A stretch of DNA of 64,000 nt from Bacteroidia bacterium (lineage in GTDB: Bacteria > Bacteroidota > Bacteroidia > Cytophagales > JAAEPT01). Made by a program: the position numbers and the translations under genes. Shown piece by piece: positions 54,706-60,485 of the stretch (the stretch's first letter is position 1; each line of letters starts with the position of its first letter). Below the pieces are notes generated by a model that was not told where the DNA came from, made no database searches, and was given only the letters and a program-made list of their open reading frames with translations. The stretch covers positions 1-64,000 of the forward strand of contig JAUIJC010000021.1 in assembly GCA_030431525.1 (NCBI GenBank), given 5' to 3'.

Positions 54706-54813
54706 ACTCTGCAAGTACGGGAGAAGCTTTAGCTGGGGTGCTGACAAAAGTCAGGGTTGGGGCGGGGGTTTGTCATTGGGGGAGGTTGAAAAATGGTGAT
54801 TGGGTTGGGTGGT

Positions 54814-54880
54814 TGGCAAGTCAGGAGAATTGAATGTAGTGGGCACGAGAGCGCTACGCTGAACTCTCGTGCCAGAGAAG
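54814..54880 (-). repeat. REP-like element, solo right-type end (copy A1)
   Basis: It contains TTGGCAAGTCAGGAGAATTG, then the hairpin GGCACGAGAG-cgctacgctga-ACTCTCGTGCC at 54842-54873. It is close to the right end of the deleted element at 57423-57482, including the trailing AGAGAAG. It lies between the ccoI start and the 3' end of the propeller gene. Confidence 0.85.
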
Positions 54881-54885
54881 AAGGA

Positions 54886-57120
54886 TTAATTGATTATAAC
54901 TTTGGTTACATAAGTTTGACTGTTGTCAGTGAAACGAATATAGAAAAGCCCTTTTTTGGTGTTAAAATCATACTTGAAATATTCGCCTTTATTCTTTTCG
55001 TCATTGAAAATTATGATGCCATTAGTATTCAAAATCTCAATATTTGTTCTTTTGCTTATATAAACATTTACCAATCCATTTGATGGGTTTGGATAAACAA
55101 CATATTCATCTTGTTTAGGGAAGTGCTTTTCAAAGCCTAAAATATCAGAGTTTTCAGATGAAATGATTTCGAATAGCCCGTTGCCTTTTGTTCCAACAAA
55201 AATATTTCCGTTATCGCTAAATGCAATTGAGCTTGTGAATGAAAGTGATGCGTTAGTTAGGTGATAACTCCATTCTTCGCCATCAAATGATGATATTTTC
55301 ATGCTTGAACCAACCCATAGTGTGTTGTCATTGTCAACATGTAATGTCCTAACCCAACCTGGTAGTCCAGCTTTTGAGTCGGAGTATTCCATCCATTTAG
55401 TGCCGTCAAAACGTAGTAATCGATAGTTTGTGCCAACCCAAATATCTTTATTCTTATCAATAGCTAAAGCATATATGCTCTCACATGTAGTACAAGATGT
55501 GCCAGAAATAGTATAGTGGGTCCAAGTATTGCCATTAAATTTTGACAAGTATGTTTTGTATCCAATCCAAACAATTCCATTTTCATCCAAAGTCATTGTT
55601 TTGGAGTTGTTGTCAATTAATCCTGAGTTAGTCTCGTTATAGGTGGTCCAGTTTGTTCCGTCAAACTTCACTAATCCTTTGTCTGTCAGACACCATAGGA
55701 TGCCATTATTGTCAATAGATAATTTTCTAATTTGGTTAGAAGGTAGATCAGTATTATTTATGTTGAATGTCTCCCAATTATCTCCGTTATATTTACCAAT
55801 TCCGTGGTCTGTTCCGACCCATATATTTCCTAAGCTATCTTTTGTTATAGTGTTTATAACGTTGGATGGGATGTTTGATTGAGAGGCTTTATGGATAAAC
55901 CATTTTTTCCCATCATATATAGCTGCACCACGACCTCCAGTTCCAACCCATATATTTCCATTGTTGTCCTTGATTAAATCTGTAACTCCACCTGATGGTA
56001 GGCCGACATTGAACTTATCATTGTAATTATTGTCTGAGTAAAATTTCCAATAATTACCATCGAATTCAGTCAACTGGGCTGAGGACATAGACCAAACATT
56101 ACCATTTGTATCGATGGAAATATATTCAACTTTATAATCAGGTATGGGAGATACTGAAGATGTGAAGTCAGTGAATTCTTCATTGTTAAATCTAACCAAC
56201 CCAGAATCAAGACCAAGCCAAATATTTCCCTCATTATCCCCCTTTAAAGAGTGGATGTAAATACGCCTCCATTCCGAATGAAGTACACCAAATCGCTTCC
56301 AAGATACCCCGTCAAATTTATTGAGACCATATCTAGTACCAGCCCAGACATTGTCGTTACTGTCAATCCATAAACTTGTAACAGTTCCTGACGATAATTC
56401 TGAATAACCTCTAAAATTTACCCAGTTTACACCATCATATCTACAAACTCCATCACCCTCAAATCCAAGCCAAATATTTCCTTTTGAATCTACTTCAATA
56501 GAGGTAATGTTATCTCTGCTTGGTATGTCAGAGTTTTCTGTATTGAATACTTCCCAAGTAACTCCATCATACTTGACAAGACCAAAATAGCCAGTACCCC
56601 AAAAAATTCCATTATCATCAAAAATAATGTTATCGTAGGAGTTATGTGAAATGCCTGAAATGTTTACATCGTAAACAGTCCATTTTTCATTCCTATCAAA
56701 CTTAACTAAAGCTCCTTGTGTTCCTAGCCAAATATTTCCCTCCTTATCTTCAGAAATACAATAAATTCGATTAGATGGTATGCCTGAGTTTTCAACATTA
56801 TAAAAATCCCACTTCCACCCATCATAATGAGCTAATCCATTGTTTTGAGTTCCTACCCATTTAGTCCCATCTTTAGCCAGATAGAAAACATCGAGTACGT
56901 AAGATCTCTGTGGAAAACTCACAGCATTCATTTTAATGATTCTATTGTCATCACATCTGGTGAGTCCGTTTCCTTCCCACCATTGAGAATCTTCTTCACA
57001 ATAAGTTGTATAGCTGTGATATTCATATGTGTTTCCTGAATGTCTTTTCCATTCTAATTTTTGAGAAAAAACATTTGTTATAAAAGCAAAATAAATTAGT
57101 ATCACTAATGATTTTTTCAT
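54886..57120 (-). CDS. Exported Reg_prop propeller protein with T9SS sorting domain
   Basis: The protein has 744 residues from the ATG at 57120. The signal peptide (SLVILIYFAFITNVFS) is followed by at least 14 units of about 40-45 residues with the pattern W[VL]GTxxGLxxFDGxxW (for example GTDHGIGKYNGDNW, CLTDKGLVKFDGTNW, VGTNYRLLRFDGTKW). Fourteen units suit two seven-bladed propellers, as in the sensor part of hybrid two-component regulators. Here, however, no membrane helix, kinase or DNA-binding domain follows; the chain ends in a type A sorting domain from YVVYPNPSNGLVNV to KVIIN. So it is likely a surface protein. The gene is notably AT-rich and bracketed by REP ends. Confidence 0.88.
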   Translation of the reverse strand: MKKSLVILIYFAFITNVFSQKLEWKRHSGNTYEYHSYTTYCEEDSQWWEGNGLTRCDDNRIIKMNAVSFPQRSYVLDVFYLAKDGTKWVGTQNNGLAHYDGWKWDFYNVENSGIPSNRIYCISEDKEGNIWLGTQGALVKFDRNEKWTVYDVNISGISHNSYDNIIFDDNGIFWGTGYFGLVKYDGVTWEVFNTENSDIPSRDNITSIEVDSKGNIWLGFEGDGVCRYDGVNWVNFRGYSELSSGTVTSLWIDSNDNVWAGTRYGLNKFDGVSWKRFGVLHSEWRRIYIHSLKGDNEGNIWLGLDSGLVRFNNEEFTDFTSSVSPIPDYKVEYISIDTNGNVWSMSSAQLTEFDGNYWKFYSDNNYNDKFNVGLPSGGVTDLIKDNNGNIWVGTGGRGAAIYDGKKWFIHKASQSNIPSNVINTITKDSLGNIWVGTDHGIGKYNGDNWETFNINNTDLPSNQIRKLSIDNNGILWCLTDKGLVKFDGTNWTTYNETNSGLIDNNSKTMTLDENGIVWIGYKTYLSKFNGNTWTHYTISGTSCTTCESIYALAIDKNKDIWVGTNYRLLRFDGTKWMEYSDSKAGLPGWVRTLHVDNDNTLWVGSSMKISSFDGEEWSYHLTNASLSFTSSIAFSDNGNIFVGTKGNGLFEIISSENSDILGFEKHFPKQDEYVVYPNPSNGLVNVYISKRTNIEILNTNGIIIFNDEKNKGEYFKYDFNTKKGLFYIRFTDNSQTYVTKVIIN

Positions 57121-57228
57121 TTCCAATTAGTTTTAGGATTGGTGATTATTTCAAATTTTTCAGTGGGATGAAATGAATCAGATATGCAATATAGTTACAA
57201 GGATTGTTTTTTTGATGTACCACCCGAG

Positions 57229-57482
57229 CTGGTTCGAGAGTTCAGCGAAGCGCTCTCGGACCTACAACCGCTCAAGTCTCCCGACTTGAATCCAATAATC
57301 ATCCACAACCTAACATTCAGACCTTTGTCCTTCCAAGGGCACAAGGACTTTTCTTTGAATGGGCTGGAGAAACAAATGTTTAGGGATTGGGAGAAGGTGG
57401 CGTTTTTTGTTTGGGTGATTGGCAAGTCAGGAGACTTGAATGTAGTAGGCACGTGAGTGCTATGCTGAACTCTCGCGCCAGA
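57229..57482. mobile_element. Internally deleted derivative of the RAYT element (MITE-like)
   Basis: The left end at 57229-57297 is identical for about 69 bases to that of the full element at 57902. The next part (CTTCCAAGGGCACAA, then TTTTCTTTGAATG) matches the leader and first 13 or so codons of the RAYT gene with decay. The sequence then jumps to the right end at 57423-57481 (GGCAAGTCAGGAGACTTGAA, CTGAACTCTCGCGCC). About 500 bases of the transposase gene are missing. This 254-base form could be moved by a RAYT in trans. The open frame over 57184-57456 is not a gene. Confidence 0.85.
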
Positions 57483-57506
57483 GAAGAGTCCTGCTTTGGA
57501 ATACAA

Positions 57507-57875
57507 CTACTCTTGTTTCAATACGACATCCACTTTATCTACTCCTTTTACTTTCTTCAAGCGATATCCTGTTTTATTGAGAGATAACTTGAAGCGAGGA
57601 GGAATTAGAACATATCCTATAAGTCCTGATTCTAGTTTGTAATGCCCGTTGGAATCTAAATAAAAAATATGTGGGGAGACTTCATTTGTGCTATCATCAA
57701 TAACTGCAGGAACTCCCATTCTATTACAATTTCTACAGTCAATTCTTACTCCTTGCAAAGGAGTTCCATCCTCATCGTAGATAGAACCGCTTATTGTTCT
57801 ATACCCTTCACATGAAAAAAGAGAAAAAATCAAACCTAGAATACTAAGCCATTTCAACTTATCAAGTACACCCAT
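57507..57875 (-). CDS. Small lipoprotein with carboxypeptidase-regulatory-like domain
   Basis: The protein has 122 residues. The signal peptide ends at the lipobox LFSC (Cys near residue 22). The mature part is one beta-sandwich module of the carboxypeptidase regulatory type: YRTISGSIYDEDGTPLQGVRIDC, then GHYKLESG and PRFKLSLNKTGYRLKK. A Cys pair DCRNCNRMG is unusual in this fold. It lies alone on the minus strand between the deleted and full RAYT elements, with only 24 and 26 bases to them, and is AT-rich like its neighbours. Function unknown. Confidence 0.75.
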   Translation of the reverse strand: MGVLDKLKWLSILGLIFSLFSCEGYRTISGSIYDEDGTPLQGVRIDCRNCNRMGVPAVIDDSTNEVSPHIFYLDSNGHYKLESGLIGYVLIPPRFKLSLNKTGYRLKKVKGVDKVDVVLKQE

Positions 57876-57901
57876 ATCCTGAATTATTAATCTGAAAGAT
57901 A

Positions 57902-58656
57902 CTGGTTCGAGAGTTCAGCGAAGCGCTCTCGGACCTACAACCGCTCAAGTCTCCCGACTTGAATCCAATATCGCCCACAACCTAATACTCATAGCTTCGT
58001 TCTTCCAAGGGCACAACAATTTTTCTTTGAATGAGCCGGAAGTACAAGATTAGGGATTCTAAGGAGGTGTATTTTGTCACCTTTGCCACTGTGAATTGGG
58101 TTGATGTCTTCACACGCCCTCTCTACAAAGATATTTTTATTGAAAGTCTGAGGTTCTGCATCCAAAACAAAGGCTTGGTGGTTTATGGTTATGTGCTGAT
58201 GACAAACCATGTGCATCTAATAATTGCCAGTGAGGGCGATGAATTGGAACACATTATCCGAGACTTGAAAAAGTTTACATCCCGAAAAATCATTCATGCC
58301 ATTGAGCAGAATATCCAAGAGAGTAGAAGGGAGTGGCTATTGTGGATGTTTCGATTGGCTGGAAAACGAAACCCCAATAACACGATTCATCAGTTTTGGA
58401 GGCAGGATAATAAGCCAATCAGCTTAGGCACTGGTGCAATGGTGTTACAGAAACTGGAGTATATCCATCAAAATCCAGTTGTTCAAGGTATTGTTGGCTC
58501 TGCTGAAGATTATGTTTATAGCAGTGCTTGAAACTATGCGGGGGTTAATAATGACTTAGTGCTTGGTGAGGTGGAGTTTGTTTTTTGATGGTTTGGCAAG
58601 TCTGGAGACTTGAGCTGTTATAGGTCCGAGAGCGCTTCGCTGAACTCTCGAACCAG
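57902..58656. mobile_element. Full RAYT transposable element with inverted REP-like ends
   Basis: The 755-base unit has terminal inverted repeats of about 60 bases (57902-57961 and 58597-58656). Each end holds two hairpins: GGTTCGAGAG...CTCTCGGACC-like with loop TTCAGCGAAG, and CAAGTC-tccc-GACTTG. The ends differ by only a few bases from each other. Inside is one RAYT gene, 58031-58531. No direct target repeats are visible at the borders, as expected for single-strand HUH/Y1 transposition. The element and its close copies within 4.3 kb point to recent activity. Confidence 0.85.
58031..58531 (+). CDS. REP-associated tyrosine transposase (RAYT, Y1 family), C terminus cut by a stop codon
   Basis: RAYT proteins are related to the IS200/IS605 Y1 transposases and act on single-stranded hairpins. 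The protein has 166 residues: SRKYKIRDSKEVYFVTFATVN at the start (20-residue core strand), the metal motif TNHVHLII, LKKFTSRKI, FWRQDNKP, and the catalytic Tyr likely in LEYIHQNPV. The frame ends at a TGA (58529-58531) after DYVYSSA. In the same frame, NYAGVNNDLVLGEVEF follows up to the next TGA at 58586-58588, as in intact relatives, so a CGA to TGA change has probably removed about 19 residues. The protein may be weakened or inactive. Confidence 0.9.
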   Translation: MSRKYKIRDSKEVYFVTFATVNWVDVFTRPLYKDIFIESLRFCIQNKGLVVYGYVLMTNHVHLIIASEGDELEHIIRDLKKFTSRKIIHAIEQNIQESRREWLLWMFRLAGKRNPNNTIHQFWRQDNKPISLGTGAMVLQKLEYIHQNPVVQGIVGSAEDYVYSSA

Positions 58657-58975
58657 TGATTGGACTAAAACTCCTGTTCAAAAAATCACTTAAATCAGCT
58701 TTCAGGGCTTGTATCTTTTCTTGCTCACTTTTGCCTTCATTGTCCATCCTAAATTGAGCAAACCAATTCATATTATGAGCTACTGAACCTCTTCCACTCT
58801 TATTATACCACATGGAGATTTCTCGCTCAGCATTAAAATTCAACATTGAATTTGTACACCAGAAAAACCCTTCCAGAAATGTTAGGTAACTATCAACTGA
58901 CTCATAGTTGCCAGTGATAAACAATGCTGGTCTTGCAAAAAGAAAACGAATAGGATGGTAAACCTTTTCTTTCAT
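58556..58975 (-). CDS. Hypothetical protein with repeat-encoded C-terminal tail
   Basis: I do not recognise this protein of 139 residues. Residues about 1-106 look native: helical, aromatic (GFFWCTNSMLNFNAEREISMW) and charged (NEGKSEQEKIQALKADL). The last 33 or so residues (from ITGSRVQRSALGP on) are encoded by the right terminal repeat of the RAYT element at 58597-58656 and the bases beyond, so the original 3' end was probably lost or replaced when the element landed. The gene may therefore be a truncated remnant. A solo REP end lies just upstream at 59000. Confidence 0.6.
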   Translation of the reverse strand: MKEKVYHPIRFLFARPALFITGNYESVDSYLTFLEGFFWCTNSMLNFNAEREISMWYNKSGRGSVAHNMNWFAQFRMDNEGKSEQEKIQALKADLSDFLNRSFSPITGSRVQRSALGPITAQVSRLAKPSKNKLHLTKH

Positions 58976-58999
58976 TATGTATTCCTAGTTAACTCTGTT

Positions 59000-59060
59000 C
59001 TGGTTCGAGAGTTCAGCGAAGCGCTCTCGGACCTACAACCGCTCAAGTCTCCTGACTTGA
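59000..59060 (+). repeat. REP-like element, solo left-type end (copy A4)
   Basis: It matches the left end of the full element over 60 bases with one mismatch (CTCC-TGACTTG instead of CTCC-CGACTTG). It lies 4 bases before the stop codon of the gene at 59065 and upstream of the gene at 58975. Confidence 0.88.
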
Positions 59061-60410: not shown

Positions 60411-60480
60411 GTATCTGGTATCAGGTATCAAGTATCAAGACACAAGATGTGCTGTATCTTGATACTTGATACCAGATACC
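60411..60480. repeat. TATCAAGTA-family hairpin repeat, copy 7, between the two usp genes
   Basis: GGTATCAAGTATCAAG-type sequence pairs with CTTGATACTTGATACC over a loop containing CACAAGATGTGCTG. This is the most regular copy in the window; the arms are about 20 bases each. Confidence 0.8.
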
Positions 60481-60485
60481 AAAAA

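Follow-up and report, generated by a model that had tools for sequence, protein, structure and literature searches.

A probable REPtron of RAYT subclass 2.6 with two-hairpin ends in a Bacteroidota genome

The best-studied REP-associated tyrosine transposases (RAYTs) are single-copy, apparently domesticated genes of REPtrons and, therefore, the question of how REPs spread is still open. The stem of E. coli REPs contains a conserved bulge on which their activity depends (PMC8266576), and single REPs (singlets) of Pseudomonas were interpreted as dead remnants (PMC3116915). RAYTs of Bacteroidota are known as subclass 2.6, which corresponds to group 5 of Bertels in the numbering of Quentin et al. 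2018 (PMC6006769). According to the main text of that paper, subclass 2.6 genes are flanked by “atypical secondary structures” which recur in the genome, and the proteins have the motifs NH[LIV]H, W and YIH[QN]NP, an HUH-Y spacing of about 82 and a C-terminal tail with a conserved SS motif; on average, 1.8 copies are present, with 40.7% identity (PMC6006769). An enzymatic test of subclass 2.6 was not found in the literature covered.

The locus described here lies in a stretch of 64,000 nucleotides (the window) from a Bacteroidota genome of 4.24 Mb in 75 contigs. The initial annotation had listed six copies of one REP-like end, three of a left (L) and three of a right (R) type, and all six were recovered, with the coordinate 54814 corrected by 3 bases and 57482 by 1. 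Two of these ends enclose a RAYT gene, two enclose a miniature unit without a gene (MITE) and two stand alone; hp1 and hp2 denote the outer and the inner hairpin of an end:

54817..54875, + strand: solo right-type end, in the order hp2 then hp1, with hp1 on the outer side
57229..57481, + strand: non-autonomous unit (MITE) of 253 bp, with an L end (57229-57288), a RAYT-derived remnant (57289-57411) and an R end (57423-57481)
57902..57961, - strand: end on the left of the RAYT unit; its outward strand reads 5'-hp2-GTAG-hp1-AG-3'
58031..58531, + strand: RAYT, Y1 HUH transposase of subclass 2.6, 166 aa, with H60/H62 and Y144; in-frame TGA at 58529-58531
58532..58588, + strand: open continuation of the RAYT frame past the TGA (NYAGVNNDLVLGEVEFVF), resembling the C-terminal tail of relatives
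58597..58656, + strand: right end of the RAYT unit, 95% complementary to 57902-57961
59000..59059, - strand: solo left-type end, found by covariance model and BLAST, one base off the other two L ends

Read outward, an end consists of hp2 (CAAGTC-loop-GACTTG), a spacer of ~10 nt which ends in a GTAG-like foot, hp1 (GGYNCGAGAG-CGCTTCGCTGAA-CTCTCGNRCC), the dinucleotide AG and then the flank. Both hairpins predicted for each end (CGAGAG/CTCTCG and CAAGTC/GACTTG) fold as described. The end measures about 60 nt, or about 74 nt if a T-rich leader is counted. As claimed before, the left ends are identical or one base apart over 60: L57229 and L57902 agree throughout (60 of 60), and a single base sets L59000 apart. 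The L and R arms in the window are 78-95% complementary, and hp1 of R58597 is of the L type in sequence despite its right position. The solo end R54817 is preceded by a T-rich R leader at about 54797-54816, is 80% identical to the L end by BLAST and scores 75.3 bits with the covariance model; one pair of its hp2 is broken, and no opposite partner was found within 2.3 kb. A foot of the canonical form GT[AG]G was read from the alignment in only about 7 of 22 ends, which speaks against the REPtron reading, although five of the six window ends are among them.

The structure was tested on an alignment of 23 ends against 500 shuffles and by sliding it by 1-3 columns. The two-hairpin structure paired 95.4% of the cells, compared to 88.1% in the shuffles, none of which reached 95.4%; after sliding, at most 45.5% of the cells were paired. 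Cells compensated on both sides amounted to 31 in 6 pairs, again a number reached by none of the 500 shuffles. In hp2, for example, CAAGTC/GACTTG is replaced by GAGGTC/GACCTC, and in hp1 CGAGAG/CTCTCG by CAGGAG/CTCCTG. Since single-strand folding energy by itself gives only modest values at the L ends (z about -1.4) and a stronger one at R54817 (z -4.0), the case for the structure rests on covariation. Pairing and compensation that beat all 500 shuffles, together with BLAST E-values as low as 1e-25 against the own genome, show that the window ends do not arise by chance. Further, one position of hp1 is unpaired in 20 of the 21 distinct sequences that have letters there; ends of the L type show C·A and those of the R type A·C. 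The stem bulge of E. coli REPs may be a parallel to this mismatch, and we take the likeness as a lead only. A search of Rfam gave no match.

The ends are not confined to the window. A search of the genome with the end, as suggested by the initial annotation, gave 23 matches by BLAST, and a covariance model built from 23 ends detected 30 at E<0.01, a number that rises to 32 at E<=1, whereas the search for close relatives of the window RAYT found only the one gene. Eight L–R units were identified, one of which (57902-58656, 755 bp) holds the RAYT. The other seven are gene-less pairs with ends within 150 bp of each other and a unit size of 148-253 bp; all seven have the same orientation with hp1 outermost and, like REPINs, they are dispersed inverted doublets with a short spacer. 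About half of the ends in the genome stand alone. The identity of the ends suggests recent movement in this genome, as far as sequence can tell.

In the MITE at 57229-57481, 122 bases downstream of the L end align with the leader of the RAYT unit and its first ~15 codons (score 98; shuffle maximum 26), and beyond this stretch the sequence passes to the R end. Because leader and codons are retained, the MITE is, judged by this alignment, derived from a RAYT unit by internal deletion, in line with the non-autonomous form proposed earlier. By eye, a similar short stretch of the RAYT (GAGGTG..TTTTGT and GAGGTGGAGTTTGT) lies near both break points and could have been the deletion joint.

Intervals between R and L ends enclose genes. 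In the window, the gene at 54886-57126 (- strand), bracketed by R54817 and L57229, encodes a propeller protein of the two-component-regulator kind, which bears a C-terminal signal for type IX secretion and has a weak similarity to PorZ. In window positions 54876-59000 and on contigs C3, C27, C70 and C73, each R-to-L interval between adjacent ends encloses one or more genes, whose reading direction is from L to R, and on C27 facing solo ends R and L bracket a single gene. This direction may reflect only gene orientation as such. An array of R-gene-L cassettes was considered and rejected, as the enclosed ORFs in the window genome look like ordinary chromosomal genes, which leaves clustering of ends; similar R-gene-L arrays in Bernardetia are striking. 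Two further repeats were seen: a 29-bp inverted repeat, 93% complementary (TGGTATCAGGTATCAAGTATCAAG...), at 60416-60481 of the window between two UspA-like genes, and direct repeats, long and tandem-like, with a length of about 255 bp within or beside a large protein gene on C73 (L107, 1-720 and 5740-6282).

The RAYT was identified by several lines of evidence. It matched the NCBIfam equivalog NF047646 (REP-associated tyrosine transposase) with 87.7 bits (cutoff 80), a family matched at E<=0.001 by all 39 aligned members, and PF01797 was the only domain found in the ORF. With a profile of 39 Bacteroidota relatives, the best solved chain was TnpA_REP of E. coli (4ER8), with Y144 aligned to its catalytic Tyr115; H60 and H62 are invariant among the relatives. 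The AlphaFold model (pLDDT 91) had 4er8 as first Foldseek match (E=3e-7), followed by the transposases of ISDra2 and IS608. The protein carries NHVH, W123 and YIHQNP and a spacing from 62 to 144 of 82, and on either side of the gene stands an inverted REP-like palindrome which recurs at other places in the genome. By motif and spacing, this REP-associated tyrosine transposase bears the subclass 2.6 signature, and the proposed RAYT/REP system was borne out by the family match above cutoff, the best structure and the genome-wide ends with one RAYT. It is not a new enzyme family, since subclass 2.6 is already known from Bacteroidota.

Three features of the window copy deviate. The published WQ motif is mostly WQ in relatives and WR here (R124), S131 stands where relatives mostly have E, and the C-terminal tail has SS at 164-165 but meets the TGA directly after A166, where relatives run on for about 17 residues. 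For these reasons, activity of this RAYT is doubtful; the gene may be decaying, and a sequencing error may also account for the TGA. Since it is the only RAYT in the genome, the family of ends may be near dormant.

Borders and copy numbers were analysed in relatives. In G020, a genome of the same order, a RAYT unit of about 718 bp occurs four times; the copies are 94-98% identical and have unrelated flanks and borders at the outer foot of hp1, and a second kind of unit is present in three copies with 94% identity. In G036, a MITE of 276 bp was counted about 22 times, 95-100% identical and with sharp borders, likewise at the outer foot of hp1; no target duplication was found at the 14 sites inspected. 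G036 probably belongs to the genus of Bernardetia sp. ABR2-2B, as indicated by a matching 35,014-bp plasmid, and a RAYT unit of G036 is shared with the ABR2-2B plasmid at 95%. These multicopy, duplication-free units suggest, from their sequences, a movement like that of insertion sequences. Many sites of G020 also matched a single end of ~74 bp with nearly full scores, and at the 17 sites sampled no opposite partner was present up to about 300 bp away; these near-identical singlets suggest recent production or movement of single ends.

Comparisons of occupied with empty sites gave no clean case. A G036 MITE in an IS110-type gene was discarded as paralogous empty site because the two flanks are not from one gene, and orthologous empty sites between G020 and G035 because the flanks are too diverged. 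A search of plasmids returned only distant RAYTs, and two Bernardetia plasmids carry a RAYT at non-syntenic places; two RHS-repeat genes flank the RAYT of one Bernardetia plasmid (NZ_CP147014.1, L265, 3339-3893). On the G036 contig C1 at 3997-4009 kb (L212), 379-400 kb and 441-451 kb, the 276-bp MITEs stand ~1 kb apart in arrays between short ORFs; several of these ORFs are fused in frame to the right end of a MITE, and one holds a metallopeptidase-like fragment. A copy outside the arrays adjoins a truncated IS110-type transposase, and several copies share a left flank, which is a truncated RAYT start, and differ in their right flank.

Most ends of the window genome are intergenic and some near-identical ones sit near one another, as would be expected if the ends served the host, for instance as terminators or mRNA-stability hairpins, and had been amplified by recombination without being mobile; besides, hairpins followed by G runs are common for REPs, and so are clusters beside genes. 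We consider this explanation very improbable, since the borders are sharp at unrelated sites on many contigs, and since the ends form paired units and the MITE has RAYT-derived cargo. The apparent damage to the RAYT gene, next to three L ends that are nearly identical, could also mean that a different cellular enzyme transposes the ends and that the RAYT is a passenger. The association of ends and RAYT argues against it. In 64 of the 76 RAYT relatives with enough flank, the inverted repeat between left and right flank exceeded the 95th percentile of pairs from different loci, and in 36 of the 76 the own partner matched best; two hairpins per side were seen at many RAYT relatives of the phylum. 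The end model of the window matched seven of 58 relatives of the order, all seven of which have RAYTs, compared to 27 of 58 overall (p=0.003), and three of the matches adjoin the RAYT gene; in the single genome of the same family that was examined, the ends do not match those of the window. The MITE, too, contains RAYT sequence, and a passenger role is very improbable. Hardly credible at all is a reading as insertion sequence of the IS200/IS605 type, in which the hairpins would be ordinary subterminal ones: the HUH-Y1 fold, a match to NF033573 (IS200/IS605 transposase) and the lack of target duplications in relatives are shared, but this match (22.9 bits) is far below the cutoff of 55, the ends are inverted and the Y motif is YIHQNP and not the published Y---Q of IS200 TnpA.

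Most probably, then, the system in the window is a REPtron with a RAYT of the Bacteroidota subclass 2.6, in which the ends are recognised by a Y1 HUH transposase and MITEs, generated by deletion, are moved in trans. The RAYT would most likely bind the folded end, with its inner hp2, loosely GTAG-like foot and outer hp1 with the conserved mismatch, on single-stranded DNA, and the foot would guide cleavage. Two inverted ends with hp1 outermost would bound one unit, which the RAYT would copy or move by cleavage and rejoining outside hp1. Internal deletion of RAYT units would give rise to MITEs, on which the RAYT would act in trans, and ends would also persist alone. Beyond the anatomy, the covariation, the genome-wide copies, the tie to the RAYT, the deletion origin of one MITE and the duplication-free borders in relatives, which were established here, we propose tentatively, at slightly less than even confidence, that the Bacteroidota RAYT is a working insertion sequence family and not a domesticated single-copy gene, with a two-hairpin end of ~75 nt that serves as the unit of recognition and is mobile alone, as an inverted pair (MITE) or as a pair around a RAYT. 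Near-identical RAYT units, MITEs and single ends of Bacteroidota are natural material with defined borders, which opens to experiment whether one end or a pair moves, on which strand, and where the cut falls. Specific predictions on recognition follow from the mismatch conserved in the stem and from the covariation of the second hairpin.

With the REPtrons and REPINs of E. coli and Pseudomonas (PMC2817692, PMC3116915, PMC8266576), the window system shares a RAYT gene enclosed by inverted REPs, the dispersal of REPs both as inverted doublets and as singlets, and a mismatch or bulge in the stem, but its ends have a second hairpin, about 60-75 nt, a loose foot and a low copy number (about 30). 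Unlike the Pseudomonas singlets, near-identical singlets recur in one Bacteroidota relative. In TIRtrons (Di Nocera et al. 2013, PMC3733652), too, long terminal inverted repeats with self-complementary tracts enclose the gene of a tyrosine transposase, but their TIRYTs are mostly of subclass 2.1 with a C-terminal HTH-like domain, whereas the window protein is short and has the 2.6 signature; with 166 aa, PF01797 alone and no long protein with an HTH-like domain, a TIRYT was rejected. IS200/IS605 elements (IS608, ISDra2) share the Y1 HUH fold, the catalytic residues and the lack of target duplication, but the IS200-type TnpA motif and the directly oriented subterminal hairpins are absent here. 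Closest is subclass 2.6 as described in the main text of PMC6006769, with the same Bacteroidota host, motifs, spacing of about 82 and flanking hairpins copied elsewhere; that main text does not contain two-hairpin ends, the conserved mismatch, MITEs derived from RAYT units or multicopy near-identical RAYT units. The earlier proposal of a family of its own is, therefore, answered in two parts: Bacteroidota RAYTs with unusual flanking repeats were already classified there, and the anatomy is in part new. The system is of an ordinary class and belongs to a little-described branch, with an anatomy that is clear and partly new.
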